This document shows, piece after piece, positions 391-24,853 of a stretch of DNA of 64,000 nucleotides; the stretch's first letter is position 1; each line of letters begins with the position of its first letter. The notes beneath the pieces are model-generated. The model made no database searches. It worked only from the letters and a program-made list of their open reading frames with translations, and was not told the DNA's origin. The stretch covers positions 62,001 through 126,000 of the forward strand of contig JAJPHI010000019.1 in NCBI GenBank assembly GCA_021325355.1. The letters are read 5' to 3'. This DNA comes from Pseudomonadota bacterium. Its GTDB lineage: Bacteria; Desulfobacterota; Binatia; Binatales; Binataceae. Position numbers and translations under genes: made by a program.

Positions 391-2667
391 CTACCCGACG
401 GTCTCCGGTTTGAGGTCGACTCTGGTCACGCGCGCGGCAGAGGTCGCAAACACGCCGGCAATGGTCGGTTCGACTCGCGCGGCAGCCACCGGCACTGGCG
501 AAGTCTCGGCGACCGCGGCGGCATCGACTCGGTGCTGGCGGACAACGATCCCGATGACCGGCGGCGACAGTCGGCTGAGCTCCCGCATGGTCGCGGCGAT
601 CTCGGGTAAACGGTCGCGTCCGGCAGCAATTGCCAGCACCACGCCCGCCGGATGCTGAATAAGCATCGCCGCATCCGCCGATTTCAGTACCGGCGGCGCA
701 TCCAACAGCACGAGATCGTGCGTGTTCAGAACGAGATCGAGAGCGTCGCGGACGCAGGACGTCAGCAGACGATCATTCCGCTGATGCGCGCAGATCGCCA
801 TACGGTCGGGCAGCTCCGCTGACGCCTTCCTGATCGCATGGACACAGGTATCAGCCAGGGCGCCGCGATGAGCTGTGTCGGATTCTTCGATTGCCGTTGA
901 AGTACCCTCAGCCACGGCCTGCTGCAAGCGCTTCCTGCCTGACAAGAAGGCGGGCGAGTTCGGCTCCGCGTAACGAATATCGGGAGCTTCCGCGTTTGCT
1001 TCGACCGCGACCGCCGAGGCGCCCAGTTCCGTAAGCTCCCTCGAGAGCGCGAGAGTGAGCGAAGTGGTGCCCGCCCGTTCACCGACCGCGGTAACCACGA
1101 AGACCCGGGTCCCCGCCTGTCGCCGCTCCCGGATAATTCCCAGCGCGATACGGCGTAATGCGTCGCGATCGGAACGATCACCGAAACCGGTACTCCCCAG
1201 CACCGGGAGTTTGAAGACACTCTCGATTTCGAGCGCCGACTTGACCGTAGGATCGGTCAGATCGAGCAGGCAGGGGACGGCAATTCCGGCTATCAGCACC
1301 CCTAAACAGGTGAGCAGCACCAGAAACTTCTGCGGCTTGCCGACCATCGGCGCGTCCGGCTCCAGTGCCGGCAGTTCAAGGCTCGCGACTCCGGGCGAGC
1401 GGCTCTGCACCCGCATCACGTCAACGCGATCGTCGATCTCGCCAAGTTCCTTGAGGTGGTTTTCGTATTCATCATGAATCGCCAGCGCTTGATTGTATTT
1501 CGCGCCGAAGGAGGCCGCGCTCTGCTTCAGCGATGCGACCTCCTGCTGAATTCCCGCGAGCGCGCGTTGCGCCTGATCCACCTGAGTCTGCGCACTCGCA
1601 ATTTTCTGATGCAGGTCGGCGGTGTGCGATGCCTGCAGGATGGTGCGGGCCTGGCGCAAGGCGTCGCCATAGATACCGCGCGTCTCCGCATCGATATCGG
1701 CGATCTTCTGCTCGAGCGCCGGACGCCCGGGATGCGACTGCGAAAGCCCCTGAAGCTGTAAAAAGACGTCCTCGCGCTCTTTCTTCAACTCGGTCTCCTG
1801 CGCGCTCAAGTCCGGATCGTTGAGCAGCAGTTTCTGCGCGAGCGAGTTAAGATCGGCTTCGCTGGGAGCGGCGGAATCCGCCTGCAGCGCCGCCAGTCGC
1901 GACTGATCTTCGATCAAATCCCGTTGTTGGCGTTCCAGCGCCACGTTCGCATTGGCCAGCTTCAGATCATAGGGGTTGCTCGCGGGACCGCTGAACGTCG
2001 TCACGCCCAATTCTTCGGTGAGCTTGCCGAGCTGCGAGCGTTCGGCCTCGAGCGTCTGTTGCAGGTCGTCGCGTCGCTGCTGCAGCAGACGCACCCGTTC
2101 GTCGGTTCCGCTGAGCTCCTGCCTTTCCTGACGGGAGAGATAAGCGTTCACGACGGCGTTGACGATATCGGCCAAACCGTTCGGCTTGGTGCCTTCGAGA
2201 CTCACCGAGATCAAAAAGGTATCCGGGATCCAATCCACCCGCAGCTCCGCCATCAACCTTTCGGCCGCATGCCGGAGACTTTCGCCGGGCGCCTGCCACA
2301 GCGCGACCTTCGGTCCGAGAAGGTTCAGCGCATCCATGATGGTTTCGGGATTGGAAATTTCGAAGACCTGCTGCTGGACGAAACTGTGATACTCGACATT
2401 CGGCATCGAGGGGGTGTCGAGTCCCAGCATCGCCCCCGCGTCGTAGGTCGGCAGGATTCGCAGCGAAGCTTCAGCGGTATATTTGGCGGGGCAGAATAAT
2501 TTGATGGCGAGCAGCCCGGCCGCGAGAACCGCCACCACCAGTATCACCGAAAGCCTCCAGTGATTTCTGATACTGGTAAACGGCTCGAACGTCCGCCCCG
2601 GAACGATCTGCGGAATTATGCTGGGATGCGCGAACTGGGTGAGTTGCGATTCGGCTTCTAAGTTCAT
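391..2667 (-). CDS. Wzc/GumC-like polysaccharide co-polymerase with degenerate BY-kinase domain
   Basis: A protein of about 758 residues that would sit in the inner membrane and control chain length and export with the Wza-like lipoprotein encoded just upstream. Two membrane segments (about residues 37-60 and 443-468) flank a long periplasmic coiled-coil region rich in Gln, Glu and Arg, as in PCP-2a proteins. The cytoplasmic half resembles a bacterial tyrosine kinase, with a Walker-B-like LVLLDAPPVL near 652. The P-loop reads VGERAGTTSL where active kinases have a GEGKST-type sequence, so the lysine is missing, and the C-terminus (VTRVDLKPETVG) has no tyrosine cluster. I infer a structural co-polymerase without kinase activity. 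ATG at 2667 is preferred over TTG at 2670. Confidence 0.88.
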   Translation of the reverse strand: MNLEAESQLTQFAHPSIIPQIVPGRTFEPFTSIRNHWRLSVILVVAVLAAGLLAIKLFCPAKYTAEASLRILPTYDAGAMLGLDTPSMPNVEYHSFVQQQVFEISNPETIMDALNLLGPKVALWQAPGESLRHAAERLMAELRVDWIPDTFLISVSLEGTKPNGLADIVNAVVNAYLSRQERQELSGTDERVRLLQQRRDDLQQTLEAERSQLGKLTEELGVTTFSGPASNPYDLKLANANVALERQQRDLIEDQSRLAALQADSAAPSEADLNSLAQKLLLNDPDLSAQETELKKEREDVFLQLQGLSQSHPGRPALEQKIADIDAETRGIYGDALRQARTILQASHTADLHQKIASAQTQVDQAQRALAGIQQEVASLKQSAASFGAKYNQALAIHDEYENHLKELGEIDDRVDVMRVQSRSPGVASLELPALEPDAPMVGKPQKFLVLLTCLGVLIAGIAVPCLLDLTDPTVKSALEIESVFKLPVLGSTGFGDRSDRDALRRIALGIIRERRQAGTRVFVVTAVGERAGTTSLTLALSRELTELGASAVAVEANAEAPDIRYAEPNSPAFLSGRKRLQQAVAEGTSTAIEESDTAHRGALADTCVHAIRKASAELPDRMAICAHQRNDRLLTSCVRDALDLVLNTHDLVLLDAPPVLKSADAAMLIQHPAGVVLAIAAGRDRLPEIAATMRELSRLSPPVIGIVVRQHRVDAAAVAETSPVPVAAARVEPTIAGVFATSAARVTRVDLKPETVG

Positions 2668-2760
2668 CAATTTATTCCAACCGCGAAAATACTAGCGCAA
2701 GCCGCTCCCGGTCATCTTCTCTCGCAAGGCTTTCCGGAATACTTGCCAGGCGCGCTCCGA

Positions 2761-3813
2761 TTAAAAAAGTGCCGCGCCCACGAACAATGAGCTGGTGATT
2801 GGATTGATTTGCTGCATCACCCAGCCGACCTTGGCCAGCCCGTTCTTCGGCACGTAGATGATGTCTCCCTGCTGAAGCACATAGTTGGCCCGCCCATCGC
2901 CGGCGGTGAAATTGTCAAGATCGACCACCTGCTGAAGATTCTGCGACGGTCGGGCGAAGACGATCTTGCTCGGTTGCGCCGTATCGGTCGGCCCGCCGGC
3001 GTCGGCGAGCGCATCGAGGAACGACATGTTTGGCGTCAGCGGATAAGCGCCAGGTTTGGCAACCTGACCCATAACATAAACCAGTTGATCACCCGGATCC
3101 GGCACGTAAACCAGATCGCCCCGCTGCATCCTGATATTCAGCGCCGGATCCACGCCGCGGTAGAGGGGTGCCAGATTGAGCCAGAGCGCGCGATTCCTGC
3201 CGCGAAAGATCGCGCAGCGCGTGACGTCGGTGTTCTCGTTCGAGACCTGCGCCGTCCCGGCCTTGGCCAACACTTCGAGCAGCGTCGGATTGTCATTGAA
3301 GGTAAGCCGTCCCGGATGGGCAACGTGACCCAGCACAGTGACGCTGTTGCCGCTGTAACTGACCATCGTCACCGACGCGTAGGTCCGCACATAGTATTCT
3401 GACAACGCGCTGGTCAGCCGTTCGCTCGCCTGATCAGGGGTCAACGACGCGACATGGATCGAACCCAAAAACGGTATCTGGATATCGCCGTCCGGTCCGA
3501 CCACGTGCGTCCCCGATAGTTCCGGTCGCGCCCAGACGGTGACCGCGATGCGATCGCCTGGTCCGAGCGTGTACTGAGGCGGGCGAATGTCCTCGAAGCG
3601 GGTTACCACCTCGTCGGCGCTTGCCAGATCCTGGGGACTCGCGGTCGCGGCCGCATCCGAGGAGTCCGCCGTCGGAACCGCTGCGGCAGGCTTGGCCGCT
3701 CCCGACGAGGCGGGCGACGGCGCCTGGCCGGCGCATCCCACCAGTAGTGCGGCAACTACCAGGAAAAGAGCCGTTACATATCGATGGGCCTGGCCCGTCG
3801 CCGTATTCGACAT
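2761..3813 (-). CDS. Wza-type polysaccharide export outer-membrane lipoprotein
   Basis: Outer-membrane polysaccharide export (OPX) protein of about 350 residues. From the ATG at 3813 it begins MSNTATGQAHRYVTALFLVV and reaches a lipobox LVGC with Cys27, so lipidation and export are expected. After a Pro/Ala/Ser-rich linker comes the poly_export domain (YTLGPGDRIAVTVWARPELS), followed by two SLBB-like repeats (SVTVLGHVAHPG and YVMGQVAKPGAYPL, each leading into a GDxVYVP-type strand). The family forms the outer-membrane channel for capsule or EPS and pairs with a Wzc/GumC protein, which is the next gene 93 bp downstream. An upstream in-frame start at 3873 exists but would bury the signal peptide, so 3813 is chosen. 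Confidence 0.9.
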   Translation of the reverse strand: MSNTATGQAHRYVTALFLVVAALLVGCAGQAPSPASSGAAKPAAAVPTADSSDAAATASPQDLASADEVVTRFEDIRPPQYTLGPGDRIAVTVWARPELSGTHVVGPDGDIQIPFLGSIHVASLTPDQASERLTSALSEYYVRTYASVTMVSYSGNSVTVLGHVAHPGRLTFNDNPTLLEVLAKAGTAQVSNENTDVTRCAIFRGRNRALWLNLAPLYRGVDPALNIRMQRGDLVYVPDPGDQLVYVMGQVAKPGAYPLTPNMSFLDALADAGGPTDTAQPSKIVFARPSQNLQQVVDLDNFTAGDGRANYVLQQGDIIYVPKNGLAKVGWVMQQINPITSSLFVGAALF

Positions 3814-4273
3814 GCCGGAGTCAGCAACGACGAGGGTTGACGATGAGCACGAGGGCCTGAAAATCTGGCGCATGTTCCTTAAGCATCTAACGACTTCGGA
3901 AGTTAACCGCCCGCTCCGGCATCATACGAGTCGGAGCACCGCGGGATAGCTTCGTCTCAACCGCTAGACTTCCTCCAGAAACGAGTTACGCATGCTCAAA
4001 CAGACCTATACCGCAGCGAACCTTAGGAACTCCGGCAGAGAGGCCTTCCAATACGGTCATTTGACCTGTGCCTTCTTGACCTTATCGAAGCTGCAATTAT
4101 TTCAGCTAAACCAGCTTTTTGCAAGCACAGACAACTCGCTCCAAGAAATCCTCTGCCATTGCGTTCTTCTATAGCAAGCTAAAGGCGACCGTCGATCACG
4201 CTTACAGGTCAGCGGCTTCCACCCGGCCGCGAATCAAGGGGCGGCGCCTCACGGCGTGTCGGCGTCTCTGGAG

Positions 4274-4359: not shown

Positions 4360-7300
4360 TCAAGCCTCCACGACCGCATTCGAGGCGCCGGAACCGATTC
4401 GTGCCATTTTGCGCATCCCCGGCGCGGGCCGGCTCTCAAGGCGTTCATCGATCCTTTGCGCCAGCACCTGCAGATGGGGCTCCTTCAGGAGCGTCCAATG
4501 ATCGCCCGGCACGTCGACAATCTCGAGACCCCCGCTAAAGAGACCGTCCCAGCCCATCGCACCCGCGCCGGCATCGCTCGTCCGCAACAGAACCGCGCGA
4601 CACCCTAACGGGCGATACCGATAATTCCGGCGAGACTTGAGATAAAGGTGCGCCGGAATATCAGACGGTTGGTAGCTATCAACCTGATTTGATTCGCGCA
4701 TCGACGGCTGGTCGGCGATCGCTTTGAAGCGCTCCGTCAGTTGGCGCAACCTGCTTCGAAGCGCGACCTTCGCCTTGATCTCCTCCCAGAGCAGAGACTG
4801 TCGCCGCCGGAAGGGAAGCTTCCGCCAGGCGTCGAGCAACAAGATCATCTCGACCGAGATACCGTGACGCTTGAGTTGATGCGCAACTTCGCAGGCGATC
4901 GTGCCACCGAAGGAATGGCCCACCAGAACCAGCGGGCCGGAACGCTCGACGCTGCGGATCAGGGCGACATGCTTCGCAGCGAGACTCTCGACCGACGGAA
5001 ACGTCCTGATCGATTCGCGATCGCTCGCCCCGTCGGCTAGCCCCGGTAACGAGACCACCGTGGCAAAGGAAGCCAGATTGGTTTTCAGCAGCCGCGCCAG
5101 GCGGCATTGCCCGACACCGGCGTCGAGGAAGAAAAGAGTTCCCGGCTTCGTGCCGGAAGCCAACCCGATGAGCTGATCACGATCGTTCCTCGGATCTGAT
5201 TCATGAAGGGCGCGGGACAGGCCTTCAACCGTCGGGTTCAGGAAGAAAACCGGAACCGGGATATGTTGATTGAACAATTTTCCGACTCGGGCCAGCACCT
5301 GGATTACCTGAAGGGAATTGCCGCCCAGGACGAAGAAATCGTCGTGCACGCCGATTTCGCCGATGCCCAGAACCTCCCTACAGACCCCGGCCAGAACCTC
5401 TTCGGTAGGTGTCCGCGGAGCCACGAACGGCCGCTCCGAGTGCACTCGCCCCAATTCCGGAGCGGGCAGCGCTTTGCGGTTGATCTTGCCGCTCGCCGTC
5501 AATGGCAGCCGTTCCAGTGTCACGAAGGCCGCCGGGATCATGTAGTCCGGCAGCTTCTGTTTAAGCGAGCGGCGCAGCTCGTCGGCCTTGGGTACGCGAT
5601 CCGGATCGCGGGGCACCAGATAGGCCACGAGTTGCTTTTGTCCGACGGTGTCGTCGCGCGCGATTACCACGCACTGTCCGATCGCCAGATGCTCCCGCAA
5701 CACCGCTTCGATCTCACCCAACTCGATGCGAAAACCGCGCAGCTTGACCTGATCGTCATTGCGACCGAGGAACTCGATATTGCCGTCAGGAAGGTAACGC
5801 CCGCGATCGCCGGTGCGGTACATCCGCGCTCCGGAGCTGCCGCTGAAGGGGTCGGCGACAAACTTCTCAGCAGTTAGTTCGGGGCGGCCGAGGTAACCGC
5901 GACCGACGCCCACCCCGCCGATGAACAGCTCTCCCGGGATTCCGATCGGAACCGGATTAAGCTGGTTGTCCAGGATATAGATGGCGACGTTGGCGATTGG
6001 TCGTCCGATCGGAACGAGGTTTTTTCCATAATCCGTTCGACAGTTCCAAAAGGTAACGTCGACCGCGGCTTCGGTCGGACCGTACAGATTGCACAAGCTC
6101 GCCTGGAACCGGCTGAAATACTGTTCCTGCAGATCGAATGGAAGGGCTTCGCCACTGCAGATGACGCGTTGCAGGGAGCGGCATTTGTCGGCTTCGGCCG
6201 CGTTGACAAAGGCCCGCAACATTGACGGGACGAAGTGGATCGTCGTAACCCCGTGCCGATGGATCGCCTCCGTCAGATACTGGCTGTCGCCCTGCCCCCC
6301 GGGTCGCGCGAGGACGAGGCGCGCGCCGTTCAGCAACGGCCAGAAAAACTCCCATACCGAGACGTCAAAACTGAACGAGGTCTTCTGTAGCACGACGTCG
6401 GCCGGCGAAAGCCCATACTCGTCCTGCATCCAGCACAAACGATTGCGGATCGCGCCGTGCGTGTTCATCGCACCCTTGGGTTTGCCGGTGGAGCCCGAGG
6501 TATAGATGACATACGCCAGATGGTCGGAATTGACGGCGCTTTCCGGCGCACCGACCGGCTTGTCCGCGATGAGCGGCCAGTCCCTGTCGAGACAGAAGGT
6601 CGTGCTTGCGCGCTGCGGCAGCACGTCAAGCAGCTTCGCCTGCGTCAGCAGAACCGCCGGAGCGGCGTCCTCCAGCATGAACGAGAGCCGTTCCGGCGGA
6701 TATTCCGGATCCAATGGGACGTAGGCCCCGCCGGCCTTCAGGATTCCCAGCAGTCCGACCACCATCTCGATCGATCTTTCGGCGCAGATGCCGACTAACA
6801 CGTCAGGACCCACGCCCAGGCTCTGGAGATGATGAGCGAGCTGATTCGCGCGCTGATTTAATTGACGATAGGTGACTTCGCGGCCTTCGCAGACGACCGC
6901 CACCGCGTCAGGCGTCCGCTCGGCCTGGCGCTCGACCAGCTCGTGGATGCATCGGTCGCGCGGATACTCCACGGCACTCGCGTTCCAGTCAAACAACACC
7001 TGCCGACGTTCGCCCTCGGTCAGCAGCGGGAGTTCATCGAGTCGGCGGCTCGGGTCGGCGGCGGCCGCCTGCAGGAGGGTCGCAAAATGGGTGAACATCC
7101 GCGCGATACGATCGCTGTCGAAGATCTCGGTGCTGTATTCCACCTCCATCCAGATCTCGTCGCCGAAGTCGGTCAGAAAAAAAGTGAGGTCGAATTTCGA
7201 CGTCCCCGCCTCGGCGAGCTCGGACCGCACCTCGAGTCCCTCGAGGCCGATGAACGACAGATGCTGGTCCTGATCGCGCCAATTGATCATCACCTGGAAC

Positions 7301-10300
7301 AGCGGCGCGTGGCTCAAGCTGCGCCGCGGTTGAAGTCTGCTGACCACCTGTTCGAACGGCACCTCGCGATGGGCATACAGGTCGAGCGCGCCCTTCTGGA
7401 CCTGCGCGAGGAGGTCGCGAAAAGTCATCGCGCCGGCAAGCCTGGTGCGCAGCGCCTGCGTATGGATCAGGAAGCCGATTACCGCGGCCAGTTCGGGCCG
7501 CTCGCGCTCCGCGATGGGCACGCCGATCACCAGGTCTTCGGCGCCGGAGTAGCGATAAAGAAGAACCTTCAGCGCGGCGGTCGAGAAAGCGAAGAGGCTC
7601 GCTTTTTCATTCCGGCTGCATGAACGCATCGCTGCCGTAAGATCAGCGTTGAGGCGAAACCGCTGGCGCGCGCCCCGATAACTTTGCACCTGCGGACGCG
7701 GGCGATCGGTCGGCAGGTCCAGCAGTTCCGGCGCGCCTTCGAGGGTCTTTGCCCAGAAATCAAGGTCCTCGGCGAAGGCGCCGTCGAGAGTTCTCTTCTG
7801 CTGCCAAATCGCATAGTCACCGTACTGAATCGGCAGAGCTGGCAGGTTCGGCGTCTCGCCGCGCACCAGCGCGCGATAGGCCGCCGACAACTCGCGCCAG
7901 ATAACGCCCTCTGACGCCCAGTCGCAGATGAGATGGTGCATCATCAGGATGAAGACGTGCTCGGTGGGCGTGAGGCGAATCAGGGTCGCCCGAATGCCGG
8001 GAGTGTTGGCGAGGTCGTAAGGCGCGCGCGGCTCCTCGCGCAGCAGACGCTCAACTTCGGCGCTGCTTTGCGCCGGCCAGAGCGCGCTCAGATCGACCTG
8101 CTTGATGCGCAGAACGAAACTCGGGTGGACCAGCACCTCGGGACCCTGCTCGCTTTTGCGAATGGTGCTGCGCAGCATCTCGTGACGCGCGATGACGAGG
8201 TTCAGCGCCTGCTCCAGCGCAGGCGCATTCAATTCCCCGATGAGTCGCACCGCCTCGGATTCATTGTAGAGCGGAAAGCCCGGCGCCAATTCCTCGAAAA
8301 ACCAGATCCGTCGTTGACCGGAACTTAGCGGATGAGACCACGGCCGCCCGCTTACCGGAATAGCCTGTGCGCCGCCGTCGTTCGCCGTCGGCAGTGCGCG
8401 CGGCGTCGTCGACAAAGACGCCGGTGAGCGTCCGTTGCCGCCATCCGCGTTGGTCCTTGCGTGCAAGCGCTCGGCAATCAGGTTCATCTGCTGCTCGACC
8501 GTCGGATGCTCGAAGAAATCCGTCAGCGAAAGCACGATCCCGAGCTTTTCGCGAATCGCGGCGAGGCACTTGATCGCCGCCAGCGAATGGCCGCCCAGCG
8601 CGAAGAAGTTGACGTCTCGCCCGATCCCGCTCTGATTAAGGACCTCGCTCCAGCTCTGGAGCAGGGCGTCGGCGACCGCGGTCGGAGCAATTTGAGCCGG
8701 AGCGGAATGGTTTCCGTTGTCGGTACCCCTCGTCGCGGTTCCGGCCAACTCGAGCAGGCGCAGACGCTGAACCTTGCCCGAAGGGCCCTTCGGCAGGTCG
8801 CTGACAAAGTGAATATGCGTCGGCGTCTTGAAATGCCCGAGGCGGCTTTCACAAAAGGACAGCAGGGCCGATTCGTCGACCGCCTGGCCTTTCCGCAGAA
8901 CGACATACGCGACCAGATCCTCGCCCAGATAACGGTCGGGGACGCCGACGACGGCAGCCTCAAAGACCGCGGGATGCGACTCGAGCACCTCGTCGATCTG
9001 CCGCGGCGCGATGTTCATCCCGCCCTTGATGATCAACTCTTTCGAGCGCCCGATGATGAAGAAGTAGCCGTCACTGTCCTGGTAGGCGAGGTCACCGGTA
9101 TGGAGCCAGCCGTCGGCGTCGAGCACCGCGCGGGTCTGTTCCTGGTCCTTGTAGTAGCCCTGCATCACGGCGTCGCCGCGAATCAGAACTTCGCCCGGCT
9201 GGCCCGGCGCGACGTCGGCGCCGTCCGGCGCGATAATCCGCGTCTCAAAACCCCAGGCCTTCCCCGGTGTGCCGATTTTGTTCGCTCCGGGGGCCTGCGG
9301 ATTGGCGAAAATATTGCCCGCCTCGCTGGAACCCATCGCCTGAATGAGCCGAATGGGAAACCGCTCCATGAATTCGCGTTGCAAGGAAGGCGACAACGGC
9401 GCCGAAGAGGAGCGAATGAAGCGGATACGCTCGTAGGCCCCCCGTCGCTGGTCAGCCTTCGGATCCCGCCAGTCCAGCAGTTGGGAAATGATAGTCGGCA
9501 CGATTGCCGACCACGTGCAGCGATAGTCGTCGAGCCAGTCCCAGAAGCGACTCACGTTGAAGTGGTTGGGAACGACGACCGAGCCTCCGGCGACCATCGT
9601 CGGCATCAAGGTCACGCACTCAGCATTGATATGGTAAATCGGCAGAACCAGGAGCGAGCGATCGGTGGCGGTCAGTTGATGTGACCGCGCCGAATTGCGG
9701 CCATGGGCCAAGAGCGTCTTATGCGAATGGATCGCCGCCTTGGGTTGACCCACACTGCCCGAGGTGTACATCAAAAGCGCCACGTCGTTTTCGTTGACGG
9801 GCGGGAGCGCCGAGGGCGCAGCGGAGGACAGCAGCTCGCTCGCTAAGGCATCGACCTCGGCGGCAACCACCTCGACCGATCGCGTAACCTCGGCCAGGGC
9901 CGCGCGCGCCAGCGCCGCGTATTGTTCTTCGACGAAGACCACGTTGGCGTCGCTGTGATCGATCGTAAAGGCGAGTTGCGACACCCCGGCGCGAACGTTC
10001 AAAGGTACCGCCACCATCCCGCCGTACATCGATCCCAGAAATAGCTGCGCGGTATAGAGGCCATTGTCGAGCAGGAACGCGACCTTGTCGCCTGGATGCA
10101 GGCCGAACGACTGCAATATCGCCACCATGGCCCGACACTGCGCCTGGAATTGGCCGTAGGTGAGGGAGCGGTCGTTATCCGCTCCGAGGAGAAACAGGGA
10201 ATCCCCGCAGACCTGAGCTCTTTCGTCGATGAGTTCGCGAATGGTTCTTGCCCTGCAGGACACGCCCGTGGTCTCTCCCGACAATTCCGGTTGAAGCTGT

Positions 10301-10311
10301 GAATTGGTCAT
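4360..10311 (-). CDS. Six-domain NRPS: acyl ligase-T-C-A(Ser)-T-TE
   Basis: A 1983-residue peptide synthetase. Domains in order: an acyl/amino-acid ligase (about 20-540; YTSGSVGQPK near 182; the stretch LPIYHINAECVTLMPTM resembles CaiC-type acyl-CoA ligases); a carrier with LGGHSL (Ser near 574); a condensation domain (about 660-1090; HHLICDWASEG near 792); an A domain (about 1115-1610; YTSGSTGKPK near 1272); a carrier with LGGNSL (near 1664); and a thioesterase with GHSFGG (near 1800) and a C-terminal GDHW His. Aligned by eye to GrsA, the pocket of the second A domain reads D-V-W-H-I-S-L-V-D-K, close to the serine code. C-A(Ser)-T-TE is the EntF layout, here fused behind its own loading module. 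ATG at 10311, preceded by GAGG, is preferred to TTG at 10353. The gene is the last of a four-gene minus-strand set. Confidence 0.93.
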   Translation of the reverse strand: MTNSQLQPELSGETTGVSCRARTIRELIDERAQVCGDSLFLLGADNDRSLTYGQFQAQCRAMVAILQSFGLHPGDKVAFLLDNGLYTAQLFLGSMYGGMVAVPLNVRAGVSQLAFTIDHSDANVVFVEEQYAALARAALAEVTRSVEVVAAEVDALASELLSSAAPSALPPVNENDVALLMYTSGSVGQPKAAIHSHKTLLAHGRNSARSHQLTATDRSLLVLPIYHINAECVTLMPTMVAGGSVVVPNHFNVSRFWDWLDDYRCTWSAIVPTIISQLLDWRDPKADQRRGAYERIRFIRSSSAPLSPSLQREFMERFPIRLIQAMGSSEAGNIFANPQAPGANKIGTPGKAWGFETRIIAPDGADVAPGQPGEVLIRGDAVMQGYYKDQEQTRAVLDADGWLHTGDLAYQDSDGYFFIIGRSKELIIKGGMNIAPRQIDEVLESHPAVFEAAVVGVPDRYLGEDLVAYVVLRKGQAVDESALLSFCESRLGHFKTPTHIHFVSDLPKGPSGKVQRLRLLELAGTATRGTDNGNHSAPAQIAPTAVADALLQSWSEVLNQSGIGRDVNFFALGGHSLAAIKCLAAIREKLGIVLSLTDFFEHPTVEQQMNLIAERLHARTNADGGNGRSPASLSTTPRALPTANDGGAQAIPVSGRPWSHPLSSGQRRIWFFEELAPGFPLYNESEAVRLIGELNAPALEQALNLVIARHEMLRSTIRKSEQGPEVLVHPSFVLRIKQVDLSALWPAQSSAEVERLLREEPRAPYDLANTPGIRATLIRLTPTEHVFILMMHHLICDWASEGVIWRELSAAYRALVRGETPNLPALPIQYGDYAIWQQKRTLDGAFAEDLDFWAKTLEGAPELLDLPTDRPRPQVQSYRGARQRFRLNADLTAAMRSCSRNEKASLFAFSTAALKVLLYRYSGAEDLVIGVPIAERERPELAAVIGFLIHTQALRTRLAGAMTFRDLLAQVQKGALDLYAHREVPFEQVVSRLQPRRSLSHAPLFQVMINWRDQDQHLSFIGLEGLEVRSELAEAGTSKFDLTFFLTDFGDEIWMEVEYSTEIFDSDRIARMFTHFATLLQAAAADPSRRLDELPLLTEGERRQVLFDWNASAVEYPRDRCIHELVERQAERTPDAVAVVCEGREVTYRQLNQRANQLAHHLQSLGVGPDVLVGICAERSIEMVVGLLGILKAGGAYVPLDPEYPPERLSFMLEDAAPAVLLTQAKLLDVLPQRASTTFCLDRDWPLIADKPVGAPESAVNSDHLAYVIYTSGSTGKPKGAMNTHGAIRNRLCWMQDEYGLSPADVVLQKTSFSFDVSVWEFFWPLLNGARLVLARPGGQGDSQYLTEAIHRHGVTTIHFVPSMLRAFVNAAEADKCRSLQRVICSGEALPFDLQEQYFSRFQASLCNLYGPTEAAVDVTFWNCRTDYGKNLVPIGRPIANVAIYILDNQLNPVPIGIPGELFIGGVGVGRGYLGRPELTAEKFVADPFSGSSGARMYRTGDRGRYLPDGNIEFLGRNDDQVKLRGFRIELGEIEAVLREHLAIGQCVVIARDDTVGQKQLVAYLVPRDPDRVPKADELRRSLKQKLPDYMIPAAFVTLERLPLTASGKINRKALPAPELGRVHSERPFVAPRTPTEEVLAGVCREVLGIGEIGVHDDFFVLGGNSLQVIQVLARVGKLFNQHIPVPVFFLNPTVEGLSRALHESDPRNDRDQLIGLASGTKPGTLFFLDAGVGQCRLARLLKTNLASFATVVSLPGLADGASDRESIRTFPSVESLAAKHVALIRSVERSGPLVLVGHSFGGTIACEVAHQLKRHGISVEMILLLDAWRKLPFRRRQSLLWEEIKAKVALRSRLRQLTERFKAIADQPSMRESNQVDSYQPSDIPAHLYLKSRRNYRYRPLGCRAVLLRTSDAGAGAMGWDGLFSGGLEIVDVPGDHWTLLKEPHLQVLAQRIDERLESRPAPGMRKMARIGSGASNAVVEA

Positions 10312-10439: not shown

Positions 10440-11528
10440 TCATCCGCAGCTATCGAGGAAAGGCCGCAGCGCGTTGGCGAGCGAATCGACGAAGCGCTCC
10501 TCGAGCATCGACGAATGGCCACCCTCGACGTCGATCACCTTGAGCTTCGGCACGAGCGCGCTCCAACCGAAAGACTCGTCCCGATAAACCTCCCGGTAAG
10601 GGACGTCGTCGCCTTCGCCGCTCTGCGCGCGCACCAGTACGACCGACGCTAGGGCCACCGGCCTTGGCGCATAGCGCTGATGGGCGGTCGCGTAGATCTG
10701 CCGCGCCGACAGTTCTGGGAGAAAGCGCGGCCATTCGCGCCCGCGGTGGAGCCGCGCGCGCATCAGATGAAAGCGCGCGATAGTCCACCATCGCGCGCTG
10801 CGCTCAGTAATTTCCCAGCGCAGCGCGCCGCCCGCCTTGCGGGCGCTCACCACGGTTACCGTCCGGAGTCGATCGAACCAGCTCGCCTGGCTTCCGCGAT
10901 GTTCCGCGATGGCTTGCCTGAGTCGCGCGAGGCGCTTGTCGAGCGTGAGTCCCGGGCGCTTAAGCGCCTGCGGCATCGACGCTTCCAGCAGAAGGACCAG
11001 CGCGACACTCTCACCCGCTGCTTCCAGTTGCGCCGCCATCTCGTAGGCGATTACTCCGCCGGCGCACATGCCGCCGAGCAGGTAGGGTCCGTGCGGTTGT
11101 TTGCGACGCACCGCCTCGAGGTAAAAGGCCGCCATCTCCTCAATCGATGAATGCGCGAGCGGAATTCCTGCGACCCGCCGCGGCTCGAGCCCGAATACCG
11201 CCATATCGGCGGGCAGGCGGCGCGCGAGACTCAGGTAAAGAAGGACTTCGCCATCACCGTCGTGGACGAGAAAAAGATTGCGTCGGTCGCCGCGCTTGAG
11301 CTCAACCAGCGATCCCGAGCGCATCCGCGCGAGCCAGGCCTCGGTGATCTGTCGGCGCCGCAGCGCAACGGCCGGATTGTCAGCGCTTATCGGCGATCGT
11401 CGCGCGCCGTTGGGCAGCGGTTCGTCCTTGCGGACGAGACGCCTGTTTAAATCTCGATCTACCGGTTGCTCCGACGTTGGCTTCATCCTTCGCATCGCCG
11501 GCGTAGCCTGCCCTCGCTCTGTCGTCAT
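10440..11528 (-). CDS. Stand-alone thioesterase with Cys in the nucleophile position
   Basis: Alpha/beta-hydrolase thioesterase of 362 residues, of the type that serves NRPS/PKS systems. After a basic, probably disordered first 50 or so residues, the core reads RRNLFLVHDGDGEVLLYLSL and then LLGGMCAGGVIAYEM. The nucleophile elbow G-x-[S/C]-x-G therefore carries Cys155 where most thioesterases have Ser. The C-terminal half ends with a conserved-looking His in VEGGHSSMLEE. Family members hydrolyse, transfer or cyclise carrier-bound acyl chains. Cys-type elbows are known in some NRPS thioesterases, including the beta-lactone-forming one of obafluorin synthesis. It starts 3 bp after the amino acid:[carrier protein] ligase and lies 128 bp before the NRPS, which has its own Ser-type thioesterase. 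A separate release or transfer step is likely. Confidence 0.88.
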   Translation of the reverse strand: MTTERGQATPAMRRMKPTSEQPVDRDLNRRLVRKDEPLPNGARRSPISADNPAVALRRRQITEAWLARMRSGSLVELKRGDRRNLFLVHDGDGEVLLYLSLARRLPADMAVFGLEPRRVAGIPLAHSSIEEMAAFYLEAVRRKQPHGPYLLGGMCAGGVIAYEMAAQLEAAGESVALVLLLEASMPQALKRPGLTLDKRLARLRQAIAEHRGSQASWFDRLRTVTVVSARKAGGALRWEITERSARWWTIARFHLMRARLHRGREWPRFLPELSARQIYATAHQRYAPRPVALASVVLVRAQSGEGDDVPYREVYRDESFGWSALVPKLKVIDVEGGHSSMLEERFVDSLANALRPFLDSCG

Positions 11529-11531: not shown

Positions 11532-12410
11532 TCAGGCGAGGTGCAGTGCTTCGCGCACCGCAGCCGGCCACTGCCACGGATCGAGACCGTGGTTGGCAAA
11601 GAGCGCGAGCACCAGTCGCTCCATGCCGAAAGCGACGCAACTGCTGTGCGCGATCGCGCCGTCAGCCGTCCGCAGCGACCAGGTCGAACCAAAGTGATCC
11701 AGATGATAGTTGAAGCTCATGCATGCCGTCGGCGCGCTTCCGATCGGAATGACCATCTCGAACTTCAGGGATTGTTCGATTTGCCGCGACGCCGCGAGTT
11801 GGCCACCCCGCCCGAAGAAGGGATCGCTGGCCGCCACGACCTCATACGGCAACTCGAGCCGCTCGACCAGTTGCCGCGCACGAGGGATCCACCGCGACCT
11901 GAATTCCAGCGCTTGGGTCGGCGTGCCCACGCATACGAATTCGCGCATCCGGAACGATTGCAGACGGCCCGCTTCCGACGTCGCCTCATGGCGAAAGCAA
12001 AAGGCCGAAACGTCGAACAGACGGCCCTCGTCGGGTAGCCGACCGACCTCGGCCTGAAGGGCGTAGACCGGATAACAGGCCGCCGGTGCAAGCACCAATT
12101 CGCTCGCCTTGAGCGTAGTGAGCCACCCGCCGCTCTCGACCGCGCTCCGAATCTTCATCTCGTCGCCCTCGAGGCAACTGACGCAGCCGAGCAGATGGGG
12201 AAAACTGTCGAGATAGCCCGAGGTTTCCAGCAGTTGGCGGCTCATCACCGGGGGAAAGTGCAGCACCTCGGTAGCGGGCTCGCGATACCGGCTGATAAGA
12301 AGTGAGAGCCGGTCGTTGACCTCTTCGAACACCGGGGTCCGGGCGTACACGCCCGCCGCACCGACCGTTCTGAGAAGCGCGGGCATGATTGTTTCGATCG
12401 CGGCTTTCAT
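11532..12410 (-). CDS. Amino acid:[carrier protein] ligase (class II aaRS-like)
   Basis: A 292-residue homologue of the catalytic core of atypical (archaeal-type) seryl-tRNA synthetase, without a tRNA-binding domain. Enzymes of this family activate a small amino acid (Gly or Ala in the Bradyrhizobium enzyme) with ATP and load it onto the phosphopantetheine of a dedicated carrier protein. Visible features are ALQAEVGRLPDEGRLFDVSA, the class II motif 2 region FRHEAT...FRMREFVCVG, and motif 3 SSCVAFGMERLVLALF. Cys112, Glu157 and Cys258 fall where the zinc ligands of the family lie. The partner is probably the carrier protein at 13735; a dehydrogenase homologue lies between them. An NRPS A domain and a tRNA-synthetase-derived loader in one locus suggest two separately delivered amino acids. 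Confidence 0.9.
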   Translation of the reverse strand: MKAAIETIMPALLRTVGAAGVYARTPVFEEVNDRLSLLISRYREPATEVLHFPPVMSRQLLETSGYLDSFPHLLGCVSCLEGDEMKIRSAVESGGWLTTLKASELVLAPAACYPVYALQAEVGRLPDEGRLFDVSAFCFRHEATSEAGRLQSFRMREFVCVGTPTQALEFRSRWIPRARQLVERLELPYEVVAASDPFFGRGGQLAASRQIEQSLKFEMVIPIGSAPTACMSFNYHLDHFGSTWSLRTADGAIAHSSCVAFGMERLVLALFANHGLDPWQWPAAVREALHLA

Positions 12411-12489: not shown

Positions 12490-13653
12490 TTAGGCTCTCA
12501 GCGTCGAAGGGGTCGCCAGCAACATCGAGGCGCCAGTTGTATTAGCAAGAATACGCTCATTATTAATCATTATTGCAGACGAAAGAATATCACGCAATTG
12601 ACGAGAGATGCTGAATTCGCCTTTGTTTCTATACCCGGCGAGGCCGCACGCGTTCAGACAATCGAGTACCGTCGCGATCGCGGTCTCGGAGGCGCTCACC
12701 TTCAGCAGGTTCATCGTGTTCTGAAAATCCAGCGCTTCGAGCTGCGCGCCGGCGCTCGCGATAGTTTGGAATTGCCCAAGTGCGGCGACAATCATGCTCT
12801 GTAGGGTGCGGAGGGACATCGTCGCCCGCGTGAGATGAACGGCTCCGGGCGGCAGTTGTCCACCGCTCCGTCGGGCCGCGGCACGCACGAAACGGCGTGC
12901 GCGGTCGACGGCCGCCGCGGCTATTCCGCACCAGACCGCGCTCCAGGTTAAATGCGCGACCGGCATCATCGTGTGCGCCTGGATGGTGGCGTAAGGCTCG
13001 GGCAAGAGCTGATCCGCCGCCGCCGACACGGTGAGCCTGAAACCTGCGCTGCAGGTCCCGCGCATCCCCAGGGTTTCCCACTCCACCGTTCGCTCGAGCC
13101 GATAGTCGCTCTTGAGCGCGGCCAGCAATACCTGATCGGTCGGCGCGGCGTCGGGCGCGCGTCGTGCCGTTGTCACAATGGCGTCCGCCTCCGCGCCATA
13201 AGAAACGACCGTCGCTTCCTTCACAAACGAAAGCCGGGTGCCGTGCCTTTCAATCGGCGCCACGCTGGTGCGCAGGTCGCCGCCACCCTGCCCTTCGGTG
13301 GTCGAAGAGGCCAGCAGCAACTGCGCAAGCGCGAGGTCGCGCAGGAGCTGGCGATGCCAGATGCTCTGCTCGCCATGACGCACCAGAATCGCGACCATTA
13401 TCTGATGCATCGCGAAGATCATCCCGACCGCGGCACATTCGCGCGCGAGCAGGTAACAGATGTCGGCAACGTCGGCGATACTGGCACCGTCACCGCCCAG
13501 GCTGCTCGGCACCAGGATGCTCAGGAGGCGCTCCTGGCGCGCGGCCTTGAAGGCCTCGAGTGGAAAGCGCGCTTCACGGTCAACGCTATCAGCGTGCTCC
13601 GCAGCTTGCTTAGCTACTATTGTCGCGCGTCGCTTAAGGTCTTCACTCAACAT
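12490..13653 (-). CDS. Acyl-CoA dehydrogenase homologue, probably acting on a carrier-bound aminoacyl group
   Basis: A 387-residue flavoprotein of the acyl-CoA dehydrogenase superfamily. The N-terminal helices (FPLEAFKAARQERLLSILVP), the FAD-contact segment LASSTTEGQGGGDLRTSV and WETLGMRGTCSAGFRL are clear. In the C-terminal region, where classical members read Y-E-G-T-x-E-I with the catalytic Glu, this protein reads IMINNERILANTTG, so the usual base appears to be absent. It lies beside an aminoacyl-carrier-protein ligase and opposite a carrier protein, so I infer that it oxidises a carrier-tethered amino acid or acts by another route, rather than fatty acid beta-oxidation. It is the first gene of the minus-strand set and starts 81 bp from the divergent carrier protein. 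Confidence 0.85.
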   Translation of the reverse strand: MLSEDLKRRATIVAKQAAEHADSVDREARFPLEAFKAARQERLLSILVPSSLGGDGASIADVADICYLLARECAAVGMIFAMHQIMVAILVRHGEQSIWHRQLLRDLALAQLLLASSTTEGQGGGDLRTSVAPIERHGTRLSFVKEATVVSYGAEADAIVTTARRAPDAAPTDQVLLAALKSDYRLERTVEWETLGMRGTCSAGFRLTVSAAADQLLPEPYATIQAHTMMPVAHLTWSAVWCGIAAAAVDRARRFVRAAARRSGGQLPPGAVHLTRATMSLRTLQSMIVAALGQFQTIASAGAQLEALDFQNTMNLLKVSASETAIATVLDCLNACGLAGYRNKGEFSISRQLRDILSSAIMINNERILANTTGASMLLATPSTLRA

Positions 13654-13734: not shown

Positions 13735-14004
13735 GTGAATCACAGAGATCAGGATGACCTGCTGCGTCACAACAGGGTTGCTAATCTTGTGCAACAGATG
13801 CTGAAGGAACGTTCAATCGTCCAAAGCATTGCGACCGATGATACCCTCATCGACGCTGGACTGACGTCGCTCGATCTGGTCAAGCTTGTCTTCCGCGTGG
13901 AGTCGGAGTTCGACCTGACGATCCCGGTCTGCGATATCACACCCGACAATTTCCGCACGATTGGGACGATCCATGGGCTGGTCAGCCGCCTCCTTGAGTC
14001 CTGA
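13735..14004 (+). CDS. Acyl/peptidyl carrier protein (partner of the amino acid:CP ligase)
   Basis: An 89-residue free-standing carrier protein. The phosphopantetheine site is IDAGLTSLDLVKL, with Ser45 as the attachment residue, followed by the helix III region VESEFDLTIPVCDITPDNFRTIGTI that is typical of the fold. It is acidic and of normal length. It is transcribed away from the dehydrogenase, amino acid:CP ligase and thioesterase genes, and family precedent pairs such ligases with a nearby carrier, so I take it as the acceptor for the activated amino acid. The start is a GTG with no strong Shine-Dalgarno sequence, which could mean a short leader. Activation would need a phosphopantetheinyl transferase, and one is encoded at 15691. 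Confidence 0.9.
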   Translation: MNHRDQDDLLRHNRVANLVQQMLKERSIVQSIATDDTLIDAGLTSLDLVKLVFRVESEFDLTIPVCDITPDNFRTIGTIHGLVSRLLES

Positions 14005-14180
14005 ACCGCAGGCTTAGTCAGCCGGCCCGGGGCGCCGTCCGGCGCGCGATCAAGGCCCGACACGGCACGCCGAAGGCTGCTCATAGGAGATTCCTGACCT
14101 CTCGTCGCCGCCTCATGGAAAAACGGCTTGCGCGAATCCAGCCTTCCGCGGCTTGCCACGTGACAACGGCTGACCGCCTT

Positions 14181-15254
14181 CTAGCACCCCTCCCCGCGAC
14201 AGAACTTCAGGAGCGTGCCGCCGATAATCTTGAGGTCCTGCCACAGTGACCAGGTGTCGATATACTTGCAGTCGAGCCTCACGATCTCTTCGAAATCGCT
14301 GACCTTCTTGACTCCCGCCAGTTGCCAGGGACCGGTGATGCCCGGTTTCATGCTGAGCCGGCGCTGATGATGGGCGCTGTACTTCGCCACCTCCTCGGGA
14401 ATCGGCGGTCGCGTTCCGACCAGGCTCATCTCACCTCGGAGCACATTCCAGAACTGCGGCAGCTCATCGATATAGTGTCGTCGCAGAAAGCGTCCGATCG
14501 GGGTCACCCGCGGATCGTTGCAAATCTTGAAGATGTGCCCCTTCATCTCATTCTGCGCGGCCAACTGGCTCAGTTGCTCTTCGGCGGTCACATACATCGT
14601 CCGAAATTTGTAGAGCTGGAAGTGGCGGCCGTTGCGTCCGACGCGAATCTGCTTGAATAAGACCGAACCGCCGCTTTCCCGCCGGATGCGGCGAGCGAAC
14701 ACGAGCCAGGCGATTCCCGCCGCCATCAGCCCGAAGATGGCCGCCACGATATCAATGCCGCGCTTGATCGACAGCGCCATCCGGTTGGTTGGCACGGTCT
14801 CCAGCGACAGCAGATATTCGCCGTTTCCGAGATGGCGGGTGGAGTAGCGGCCGCTTTCGCCCAAAGGTGACTGTAAGACCCTTTTGAACGTGATGCCGCG
14901 AACGGCGCAAGCGACCGACAGGTCTTCGCCGTTGATCCCGGCACATGGACCCAATTGCACGACTTCATCGATTGGATATCTGTCAAGGACCCAATCGAGC
15001 TCGTCGCAGGCCTGCAGGCGATCGCCACGCCGGAGCTGCAGACTACCGCGCGGACCTACATTAAGAAAGCCTACGATATCGATGGATTGCTCTTTATAGT
15101 TTTTGAAAAGTTTGATAAGCTTGTTATTGCTGTTTTCATCTCCGACGACTAAGACGTGTGTCTGCGACGCTCGCGGCAGTACCCTGAGCTGCCGTGAAGT
15201 GCGCGCTTCCGAAACGTTTACGGCAGTTTCGGCGGTTTCGAGCGATACGTCCAC
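14181..15254 (-). CDS. Initiating sugar transferase (polyprenyl-phosphate glycosylphosphotransferase) with soluble N-domain
   Basis: A 357-residue protein. The C-terminal 200 residues are a bacterial sugar transferase domain: KRGIDIVAAIFGLMAAGIAW forms the single re-entrant or membrane helix, followed by FKQIRVGRNGRHFQLYKFRTM, DELPQFWNVLRGEMSLVGTR and KPGITGPWQ. These enzymes move a sugar-1-phosphate onto undecaprenyl phosphate to begin a polysaccharide repeat unit. The N-terminal 145 residues read as a Rossmann-like nucleotide-binding domain (THVLVVGDENSNNKLIKLF), but the four-helix membrane bundle usual in WbaP/ExoY-type long forms is missing. The start is GTG, with AGGAGGT 13 bases before it and an in-frame TAA further up. 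It faces the carrier protein at 13735 convergently. Confidence 0.88.
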   Translation of the reverse strand: MDVSLETAETAVNVSEARTSRQLRVLPRASQTHVLVVGDENSNNKLIKLFKNYKEQSIDIVGFLNVGPRGSLQLRRGDRLQACDELDWVLDRYPIDEVVQLGPCAGINGEDLSVACAVRGITFKRVLQSPLGESGRYSTRHLGNGEYLLSLETVPTNRMALSIKRGIDIVAAIFGLMAAGIAWLVFARRIRRESGGSVLFKQIRVGRNGRHFQLYKFRTMYVTAEEQLSQLAAQNEMKGHIFKICNDPRVTPIGRFLRRHYIDELPQFWNVLRGEMSLVGTRPPIPEEVAKYSAHHQRRLSMKPGITGPWQLAGVKKVSDFEEIVRLDCKYIDTWSLWQDLKIIGGTLLKFCRGEGC

Positions 15255-15690: not shown

Positions 15691-16362
15691 ATGACCTCAC
15701 CGCTGCGCGCGCAAATCCGACGACTCCTGCCGGCTGGAGTGGCGGGCGCGGAATTGCTTGAGTTCGCTCGTGCGGCTCCACTCTTGATCGACGAGGAGAT
15801 GGCAGTCGCCACGGCTGCCGAAAGCCGTCGCCTGGAGTTCAGGGCGGGACGCGACTGCGCGCGGCGCGCCTTGCTCGAACTCAATTATCCGATTCAACCC
15901 CTGCGCCGTCGGGCCGACCGCACGGTCGAATGGCCCGAAGGCGTGGTCGGTAGCGTGACGCATACCCGGGACTACGCTGCAGCCGTGGTCGCGCGGTCGT
16001 GCGATTGGGGTGGGATCGGCATCGACGCCGAGTTAAGCGACGGCGCGAATGATCCGAAACTATGGCGGCTTATCGCGACCCCCGAGGAGATCACCTGGGT
16101 CGCCGCCCAGGGCGAACGCGCCGCGTTCAGCGCTACCCTGCTCTTCAGCGCCAAAGAGGCCTTCTACAAGGCTCAGTACTGTCTCACGGCGCGATGGGTG
16201 AATTTTGACGAAGCGCGATTTCATCTCACACCGGGTGGCTTTGAGATCGAACTCCTCATCGACCTGCCGCGAGTCGGCAAGCGCGGGTCGCGTCTTAGCG
16301 GCAGCTATTGCGAGGACGAGGCGCGGATCGTGACCTTCCTCGCGCTGCCCGCCCGTCGCTGA
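15691..16362 (+). CDS. 4'-phosphopantetheinyl transferase (EntD/Npt type)
   Basis: A 223-residue enzyme that transfers phosphopantetheine from coenzyme A to the serine of carrier proteins. The family signatures are all present: GSVTHTRDYAAAVV, GIGIDAELSD (Asp112 and Glu114 as Mg ligands) and LFSAKEAFYKAQY (Glu156, Lys160). The short EntD-like length and the N-terminal FRAGRDCARRAL motif place it with transferases of secondary metabolism rather than AcpS. Its position between the two carrier-protein modules, in the same locus as four carrier sites (two in the NRPS, one each at 13735 and 23187), makes it the likely activator of all of them. ATG at 15691 follows a GAGCGGG. Confidence 0.93.
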   Translation: MTSPLRAQIRRLLPAGVAGAELLEFARAAPLLIDEEMAVATAAESRRLEFRAGRDCARRALLELNYPIQPLRRRADRTVEWPEGVVGSVTHTRDYAAAVVARSCDWGGIGIDAELSDGANDPKLWRLIATPEEITWVAAQGERAAFSATLLFSAKEAFYKAQYCLTARWVNFDEARFHLTPGGFEIELLIDLPRVGKRGSRLSGSYCEDEARIVTFLALPARR

Positions 16363-18739: not shown

Positions 18740-19663
18740 ATGGAAAGAGTTCTGTTCGGGGATAATCAGTTCTTCGGCATCAACCACATGTCCGAGGAGA
18801 AGGCGCGCGCGCAGGCGATGCGGTTTCAGGACGATCGCAGCATCATCGAGTTGCTCGATATCGCCTACGCCGCCGGCATCCGGGTGTTCATGTGCACAAC
18901 GCACGCGCGGATGGCGTCGTTATGCGACCATATTCGCGCACATCCGGAGCGCTACGCGGGCTTTCAGCTTTATCCCTGCATGCCTTATGCGCACAAATAC
19001 GCCGACGCGGTTACCGAGCACGGCATGATCGGCGCGCTGAAGCGCTTCCTTCCGGAGGAGCGCGCGTTCAACGCGCTCTTCAAAGGCGGGATGGCGCTGG
19101 CGACGCGCGACCTCGAAGCCATCGCGCAGTTGTTGATCGACGCCGAGATGAAGAGTTTTGCGGGTCTCGAGACACCGATCATCTTCCTGCAAAACGTGGT
19201 GACCGATCTGCTGCTGGGCCTCGGCTTCGTGCAGGCGTTTCGCATGTTTGCGGATCATGTCGAGCGCAAGTACAAGGCGGAAGCGGGCTTCATCACGATG
19301 AACATGCCGCGTCTGCTCGACGCGCTTGAAAGCGTCGGTATCGACAATCCGATTATCTGCGCGAACATCAACAAGATCGGCTTTCGGATGTGCGGCGGCA
19401 AAGAGCTTTACGAAAAGACGATTGCGACTCGGCAATTCCGGCCAATCGCGATGTCCGTGCTGGCCTCAGGCGCGATCCCGCCGCGCGAAGCCATCGCCTA
19501 TGTGTGCGCCCAGAAACAGATTCGCTCGATAGTGTTCGGCGCCTCCAGCCGATCGACCCTGCTTGAAACGAAACGGCTAATCGACGAACTGAGCCAGCCC
19601 ACGCCGTCCCCGGATTCAGCGGTCGAAGACGCGTTCAGTACGGGTCCACGGCATGTCGCCTGA
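18740..19663 (+). CDS. Conserved TIM-barrel-like protein of polysaccharide loci (aldo-keto-reductase-like)
   Basis: A 307-residue protein beginning MERVLFGDNQFFGINHMSE. The late segment RPIAMSVLASGAIPPREAIA, followed by IRSIVFGASSRSTLLETKRL, resembles the end of aldo-keto reductase barrels (gain-of-site and cofactor loops). The classical D-Y-K-H tetrad cannot be placed with certainty, so I do not claim reductase activity. Similar unnamed proteins occur in EPS loci. It follows the Gfo/Idh/MocA gene by 39 bp with a good AGGAG, and is probably the last gene of that operon. Its 3' end overlaps the convergent glycosyltransferase gene by 48 bp. Its role in sugar modification is inferred from context only. 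Confidence 0.65.
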   Translation: MERVLFGDNQFFGINHMSEEKARAQAMRFQDDRSIIELLDIAYAAGIRVFMCTTHARMASLCDHIRAHPERYAGFQLYPCMPYAHKYADAVTEHGMIGALKRFLPEERAFNALFKGGMALATRDLEAIAQLLIDAEMKSFAGLETPIIFLQNVVTDLLLGLGFVQAFRMFADHVERKYKAEAGFITMNMPRLLDALESVGIDNPIICANINKIGFRMCGGKELYEKTIATRQFRPIAMSVLASGAIPPREAIAYVCAQKQIRSIVFGASSRSTLLETKRLIDELSQPTPSPDSAVEDAFSTGPRHVA

Positions 19664-22065: not shown

Positions 22066-22290
22066 CTGCTCGGCCGGATCGGCGCGAAGGTTAACAAAGG
22101 AATTCAGGTTTTGCTGCTCCAAGGCACGAATTAGGCGCTTTTATCGTACCGAAGCATTGGACCAAACAACGCGAAGTCTTGCAAGCCAGGACTGGTTTCG
22201 CCAAGAAAAGGTCATGAGAAAGGCTATGAAAAAACGCTGCTATCTGTTAGCATGCCTAAATTAAGAATTGCATAGAATGGCGAAATAAAC

Positions 22291-23151: not shown

Positions 23152-23186
23152 CGTCCCCCCGCAAACATGAAGCGAGGATGGTCCCG

Positions 23187-24810: not shown

Positions 24811-24823
24811 GGCGTCCATCGTT

Positions 24824-24853
24824 GCTGGCGAAAGCAGTCAGGCTTTCGTCGGC
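24824..24853 (+). promoter_or_regulatory. 12-bp intercistronic RNA hairpin before metY
   Basis: Arms GCTGGCGAAAGC (24824-24835) and GCTTTCGTCGGC (24842-24853) pair over all 12 positions when two G-U pairs are allowed, around a six-base loop AGTCAG. It ends 26 bases before the GTG of metY and about 10 bases before the GGGAG ribosome site. No U-run follows, so it is not an ordinary terminator. It may stabilise the transcript or tune translation of metY relative to the upstream adenylating enzyme. Confidence 0.55.

Follow-up and report, generated by a model that had tools for sequence, protein, structure and literature searches.

What does a non-ribosomal peptide synthetase (NRPS) do inside a polysaccharide locus? 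The question is raised by a stretch of 64,000 nt from a Binataceae genome (assembly GCA_021325355.1, contig JAJPHI010000019.1, positions 62,001 to 126,000; called the window below), in which the minus strand reads as a single open frame with an ATG start from 10311 to 4360, the plus-strand reading being full of stops. Its product, P0001, is a synthetase of 1983 aa; an alternative TTG start at 10353 is possible, and the sequence upstream of the ATG at 10311 is GAGGAGACCGAGG. Tentatively, and with slightly less than even confidence, we propose that P0001 makes an N-acyl-seryl group for decorating the surface polysaccharide of the locus. The most informative evidence on the synthetase is its context: the gene lies among polysaccharide genes, in a locus that holds two more carrier-protein/thioesterase systems, the second of these just outside the window.

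Pfam matches (AMP-binding, AMP-binding_C and PP-binding twice each, Condensation and Thioesterase once each) and the positions of motifs give P0001 the order A1-T-C-A2-T-TE (A, adenylation; T, carrier; C, condensation; TE, thioesterase domain). An initial annotation, made from the sequence alone, had described a C-A-T-TE order behind acid-activating and carrier domains, with which both kinds of evidence agree. All domains lie on the minus strand: the acid-activating A1 at aa 20-520 (8752..10254), T1 with a GGHSL motif at aa 548-608 (8488..8670), C at aa 661-1105 (6997..8331), the serine-type A2 at aa 1127-1615 (5467..6933), T2 with a GGNSL motif at about aa 1631-1700 (5212..5421) and TE at about aa 1715-1955 (4447..5169). 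P-loops are found at residues 182 and 1270 and A10 lysine motifs at 512 and 1608. The HHxxxD motif of the C domain, at residue 792, reads HHLICDW and not HHxxxDG. In the TE, the motif GHSFGG holds the nucleophile Ser1800, with candidate Asp and His motifs at 1824 and 1935. A search of its own genome with P0001 gave 13 matches, and none besides the gene itself was full length.

For A2, serine is the best prediction. The code DVWHISLVDK, read by script from an alignment that included EntF of E. coli K-12, differs from the EntF code DVWHFSLVDK in one of ten residues. Two further A domains point the same way: one from a Methylocystis bryophila plasmid is 58.6% identical to A2 and has the same ten code residues, and the code of a Rhizobium leguminosarum Vaf-108 A domain is DVWHVSLIDK. 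The ten residues are those given in the initial annotation, whose comparison with the serine code of EntF holds to within a single position; the computed pocket matches serine, and a non-serine code did not arise.

A1 is an acyl-CoA-ligase-type adenylation domain, judged by NCBIfam models and its relatives in the PDB. Among the best 25 of 110 NCBIfam matches of P0001 only two, both broad models, pass their cut-off, the amino acid adenylation domain and the long-chain acyl-CoA ligase subfamily PRK06187. Among solved structures, oxalate-CoA ligases come nearest (E 4e-75), and feruloyl- and fatty-acyl-CoA ligases come next. A CaiC-type ligase, as first suggested, had to be given up: the CaiC model NF005947 scores 380.3 bits on the whole of P0001, below its cut-off of 651, and the nearest structures are of the oxalate type. 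A 2,3-dihydroxybenzoate (DHB) ligase was likewise rejected, as the initial annotation had already done, since A1 is only 24% identical to EntE. In the GrsA scheme Asn replaces Asp235 in all four A1 sequences at hand (its own and those of three other genomes), in columns that are provisional because EntE was misplaced at one motif of that alignment. With the same reservation the A1 code reads NAVARSANIK, identical in all ten positions in genome G029 and in a Verrucomicrobiales metagenome-assembled genome (MAG) from a bog, and NAAARSAELK in genome G044. We infer from this that A1 would activate a carboxylic acid without an alpha-amino group. The fifth code residue is Arg by the script reading, and the FIRS stretch around it is shared with oxalate-CoA ligases and not with the two feruloyl/fatty-acyl ligases compared. 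This likeness may serve as a lead, not more, towards a small (di)acid.

A1 is a rare acid loader. Since the genome searches scored a part of the candidates, all counts are lower bounds; where a genome is unannotated, gene starts and overlaps come from mechanical open reading frame (ORF) calling. Within the class, A1 was found in two out of 148 genomes at E<=1e-140, its own genome counted; this search did not report G044, whose A1 copy is split over frames and was seen by local tblastn. A sample of the phylum yielded seven out of 395 genomes at 1e-120, namely its own and six with stand-alone ligases, and the class of the Verrucomicrobiales MAG two out of 384 at 1e-140, that MAG counted. Among 72,556 plasmids no A1 match was found at 1e-110. 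P0001 as a whole matched 16 of 96 relatives from family and class at 1e-150; its own gene aside, only the match in G029 reached into A1. The six stand-alone ligases (loci L074-L079) are 44-46% identical to A1. In the one of their operons that was scanned (L076), subunits of a 2-oxoacid:acceptor oxidoreductase adjoin the ligase, the other loci being similar by their first residues; two transporter-like proteins in L078 have no NCBIfam match.

Where A1 does occur, its partner varies. The G029 orthologue of P0001 is 58-59% identical. A1 itself is 76% identical in G029 (429 aa), 66% in the Verrucomicrobiales MAG (506 aa) and 55% in G044 (311 aa), and the corresponding values for A2 are 47%, 48% and 56%; thus A1 is better conserved than A2 towards G029 and the MAG, not towards G044. 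The C domain is 65% identical in G029 and 55% in the MAG. The A domain partnering A1 has the code DFWNVGMVHK in G029, DAWFIGWIAK in G044 and DLFNNALTY in the MAG, where the tenth residue is outside the coverage; we take the first to be threonine-like and the last to be glycine-like. A conserved loader beside differing partner codes suggests that one acid loader has been combined with different amino acids. By inspection, the glycine-like A domain of the MAG carries a methyltransferase-like insert and is followed by polyketide synthase (PKS) modules, a clear difference from P0001 behind a closely similar starter.

The genes around P0001 are those of a polysaccharide locus. Downstream follow a Wza-type polysaccharide export protein (Poly_export, SLBB; 2761..3873, minus strand) and a Wzc-like chain-length/tyrosine-kinase-type protein (391..2670, minus strand), the latter with weak NCBIfam matches below cut-off, no Pfam match and 41% identity to the protein that follows wza in the same-genus genome G001. 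Upstream are a polyprenyl-phosphate sugar transferase (Bac_transf by Pfam/NCBIfam; 14181..15254, minus strand), two glycosyltransferase genes (19616..22122, minus strand), one of family GT2, EpsU-like though under the EpsU cut-off, and one of GT4, and rmlABCD. Left of the window (L009) the locus continues with P0004, a fusion of an FkbH domain with T and TE, and with GT2 genes, an ABC-2 pair and a Wzy_C protein. The immediate neighbours of P0001 are wza and a free-standing thioesterase gene, TE2.

A comparable arrangement exists in G001, where 4 nt are shared between a C-T-TE gene (L088:7082-9667) and wza (9664). The gene order in both genomes shows wza directly preceded by an NRPS-type gene, with differing domains. 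In order, the G001 homologues are GT2 (58%), then, behind the C-T-TE gene, Wza (52%), the Wzc-like protein, a second GT2 (57%) and Wzy_C (37.5%). The G001 locus also encodes an exosortase E/protease (L088:5111-7171; 209 bits, cut-off 150); a motif scan for exosortase found none in the window or in the adjoining DNA to its left. In G029, the contig with the P0001 orthologue also holds GT2 homologues (55-56%) and an RmlB homologue (62%), and wza was not found there at 1e-15.

The first of the two further carrier systems stands directly upstream of P0001 and on the same strand. TE2 (10440..11528) has the Cys nucleophile motif GMCAGG and is separated by 3 nt from an amino acid:[carrier protein] ligase of the Bll0957 family (11532..12410), which is followed by an acyl-CoA-dehydrogenase-like flavoenzyme (12490..13653; Pfam/NCBIfam). 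The ligase scores 398.9 bits with NF005479 (cut-off 357) and, like the solved Bradyrhizobium relatives (PDB 4h2w, E 1e-98, and 3mey), belongs to this family by an alignment over residues 8-291. Divergent from the flavoenzyme, on the plus strand, lies the gene of a small carrier protein with the motif DAGLTSLD (13735..14004; Pfam PP-binding 34 bits, cut-off 20.8; NCBIfam NF005480 42.8 bits, under the cut-off of 72). A minus-strand ORF at 13767-14159 was also considered for the carrier and rejected, as it has no Pfam match. A 4'-phosphopantetheinyl transferase (15691..16362, plus strand) may prime the carriers of the locus.

Azospirillum brasilense and Mycetohabitans rhizoxinica have the same triad, in the order carrier, flavoenzyme, ligase; behind it come DUF1839, a glycosidase and an alpha/beta hydrolase. 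Identities to the window proteins in these two species are 188/385 and 166/385 for the flavoenzyme, 153/286 and 138/292 for the ligase, and 18/81 and 20/79 for the carrier. In all four aligned flavoenzymes Glu is absent from what we take, by its motif, to be the usual position of the dehydrogenase base. Among 96 relatives the ligase occurs in six at 1e-20; the identity is at least 59% in three (its own genome, G017 and G029) and 29-32% in the other three. In G017 flavoenzyme and ligase (64% and 59%) stand beside PKS/NRPS genes; in G029 the ligase (60%) adjoins a GT4 gene.

The window ligase stands beside an NRPS and a Cys-thioesterase. Searches by tblastn with two DUF1839 queries, which matched both source loci, found no homologue in the window or the adjoining 36 kb on its left, nor in the loci L088 (of G001), L040, L048, L049 and L065. 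The DUF1839 model, which scores the Azospirillum protein at 395.9 bits, gave none among the 96 relatives, where the control was silent too. Judged from the order of genes, TE2 occupies in the window the place of DUF1839. The structure that AlphaFold predicted for TE2 from two aligned sequences was of low quality (mean predicted local distance difference test score, pLDDT, 48.4). In a note added in proof, PMC2922099 (2010) predicted that the triad attaches a modified amino acid to the amino group of a cell-surface sugar, and named the uncharacterised neighbour Atu2574 as amide-forming. From the gene order Atu2574 would be a DUF1839 protein. PMC10318531 assigns DUF1839 to the papain-like fold and proposes a role in glycan processing.

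The second system is P0004 (L009:11467-14445, equal to C17:57467-60445), in which the FkbH domain scores 298.6 bits with TIGR01686 (cut-off 146.65). FkbH proteins load glyceryl groups onto carriers. P0004 shares this domain with the known loaders and differs from them by its fusion to T-TE with a Cys nucleophile motif and by its place in a polysaccharide locus, where its gene overlaps that of a glycosyltransferase, GT2a, by 4 nt. Its TE is 51% identical to TE2 and shares the motif GMCAGG, with Cys where the TE of P0001 has Ser. Among the 96 relatives P0004 was found in two at 1e-80, its own genome and one covering the FkbH part only. A broken FkbH/TE stretch that lacks the middle of the protein lies in G029 (L090:2036-3767), at the contig end beside a 62% GT2a homologue.

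More distant lineages repeat this pairing. Plasmid pOJF2_1 of the planctomycete Aquisphaera giovannonii carries a full-length P0004 homologue (46%; FkbH-T-TE with GMCAGG). The locus around it is of the exosortase/polysaccharide kind and also encodes proteins homologous to GT2a, GT2b, both members of the ABC pair and the sugar transferase; the GT2a homologue (39%) lies just upstream, spread over two annotated genes. On plasmid Cy782201 of the cyanobacterium Gloeothece verrucosa (L101:11764-16876), amid genes of PEP-CTERM proteins, a C-A-T-TE gene and a GT2a homologue (48.5%) share 8 nt. This NRPS has a TE2-type Cys-thioesterase (GLCAGG) and differs from P0001 in its A code, DVQFISQVVK, and in having no acid-loading module. 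In all, TE2 matched five records at 1e-20 among the 72,556 plasmids, and a GT2a homologue adjoins in these two. A tree of 15 thioesterases places TE2, P0004, Aquisphaera and Gloeothece, all with G(M/L)CAGG, on one branch, whose support of 86/92 is under the mark for firm support (88% of 200 bootstrap trees), in a tree that leaves eight of its 12 inner branches open and has three long terminal ones.

Because NRPS-type or FkbH-T-TE genes stand beside polysaccharide genes in several lineages, and in view of the prediction for the triad in the note of PMC2922099, decoration of the polysaccharide is the role that we prefer for P0001. The phosphopantetheinyl transferase would prime its carriers. A1 would adenylate the acid and load it onto T1, C would join it to serine loaded on T2 by A2, and the TE would take over the N-acyl-seryl group for release or, as we suppose, for transfer and not hydrolysis. 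The most likely acceptor would be a hydroxyl or amino group, either on the polysaccharide itself or on its lipid-linked or nucleotide-sugar precursor. In parallel, the triad would provide an oxidised or hydroxylated aminoacyl thioester, from which TE2 with its Cys would transfer the aminoacyl group, and P0004 would contribute a glyceryl group, all three systems presumably serving one polysaccharide. What the sequence itself shows is the order of domains and of genes, the motifs, the serine-type code and the family of the ligase.

With considerable reserve this can be extended beyond the host to planctomycetes and cyanobacteria: thiotemplate lines built from NRPS modules, amino acid:[carrier protein] ligases or FkbH glyceryl loaders and ending in Cys-thioesterases may act there as acyl or aminoacyl transferases for polysaccharides, the loaders being swapped before a conserved unit of T-TE and GT2a, and P0001 may be one such decorator. 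NRPS, ligase and FkbH are each of a known kind. Our literature search, among open-licence papers, did not meet their combination, the unit of Cys-thioesterase and GT2a with exchangeable loaders, or any paper on a polysaccharide decorated by an NRPS.

Several observations weigh against decoration. P0001 and wza are separated by a gap of 486 nt with a promoter-like site (five such sites in the region compared with 2.7 +/- 1.9 in shuffled sequences). The TE of P0001 has Ser where its G029 orthologue has Cys, and in the tree it stands off the Cys-thioesterase branch and groups with G029. The other three plasmid matches of TE2 (GHCYGG, GHCYGG and GWSLGG) have no GT2a homologue within flanks of 10-12 kb, and the triads of Azospirillum and Mycetohabitans run into DUF1839, not into a TE2. 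C-A-T-type NRPS parts, such as P0001 has behind its loader, are common: 613 plasmid records match P0001 at 1e-100. The G044 homologue is flanked by two amidohydrolase genes on an 8.6-kb contig where no glycan gene was seen, and in the Verrucomicrobiales MAG (L021) A1-T-C opens an ordinary-looking NRPS-PKS line; this line is preceded by two glycosyltransferase genes that pass the cut-offs, an epimerase and an acyltransferase gene.

These last two loci, together with the place of A1 in the broad acyl-CoA-ligase group, are also what speaks for a free, secreted N-acyl-serine (a lipoamino acid or short lipopeptide), with the polysaccharide genes as neighbours by accident or co-regulation. We regard this as possible, though doubtful: in G001, G029, Aquisphaera and Gloeothece alike, polysaccharide genes have an NRPS-type or FkbH-T-TE gene beside them, and neither TE2 nor wza belongs by family to the small-molecule exporters. 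N-acyl-serine, one of the products considered in the initial annotation, is the natural predicted intermediate.

Closure of a beta-lactone from N-acyl-serine (from threonine in G029) by the TE, as in the release of obafluorin, is improbable. The serine-like and, as we take it, threonine-like codes of the two closest orthologues would both give a beta-hydroxyl group, and the TEs of G029 and G044 have the Cys nucleophile motif; the TE of P0001, however, has Ser.

The initial annotation had also called P0001 EntF-like and proposed a cyclic oligoester as a second possible product. The likeness lies in the C-A-T-TE order and the A2 code, and the A domain is 44% identical over 553 aligned positions. 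Close kinship does not follow: the EntF model NF007605 reaches 699.2 bits where its cut-off is 2400, the C domain is 24% identical, the TE 32% over just 62 aa, and P0001 has A1-T fused in front. A tblastn search (E<=1e-3) of the window and the adjoining 36 kb on its left gave no homologue of EntA, EntB, EntC, Fes, FepA or YbdZ, and a scan of the same DNA for the MbtH motif found only the YbdZ control; a catecholate siderophore locus was rejected, as no DHB, iron-uptake or MbtH homologue was found there. An iterative TE making a cyclic N-acyl-serine oligoester as in enterobactin, possibly a metal chelator, is therefore very improbable, in spite of the domain order, the near-EntF code and a threonine-like code in G029 that we take to parallel bacillibactin, given the short TE match, the missing Ent, Fes, FepA and YbdZ homologues and the distance of A1 from EntE.

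Further to the right the window holds genes outside these systems. A block at 22291-29450 encodes a 2-oxoglutarate oxygenase, a carrier-like protein just under the Pfam cut-off, an AMP-binding protein, a sulfhydrylase-like protein of the O-acetylhomoserine type, a MetA-like protein and a pyridoxal-phosphate decarboxylase, and is possibly a further carrier-based pathway. A radical S-adenosylmethionine DUF3463 protein (42377-43375) and a squalene-hopene cyclase (45416-47425) likely mark a hopanoid block to the right of the polysaccharide locus.

Bacterial polysaccharides are well known to carry glyceryl, aminoacyl and N-acyl-aminoacyl groups, and for many of these we know of no enzyme that places them. 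In the window locus the ligase triad is joined by a Cys-thioesterase and an NRPS amid polysaccharide genes, and on two plasmids, one from a planctomycete and one from a cyanobacterium, this type of thioesterase is paired with one kind of glycosyltransferase. With Gloeothece verrucosa PCC 7822 and Aquisphaera giovannonii OJF2, the proposal in the note added to PMC2922099, that ligases resembling seryl-tRNA synthetases supply amino acids for cell-surface sugars, becomes testable in named strains. If decoration by P0001 and its like holds true, some bacteria would decorate their outer coat with assembly lines of the kind otherwise associated with antibiotics.

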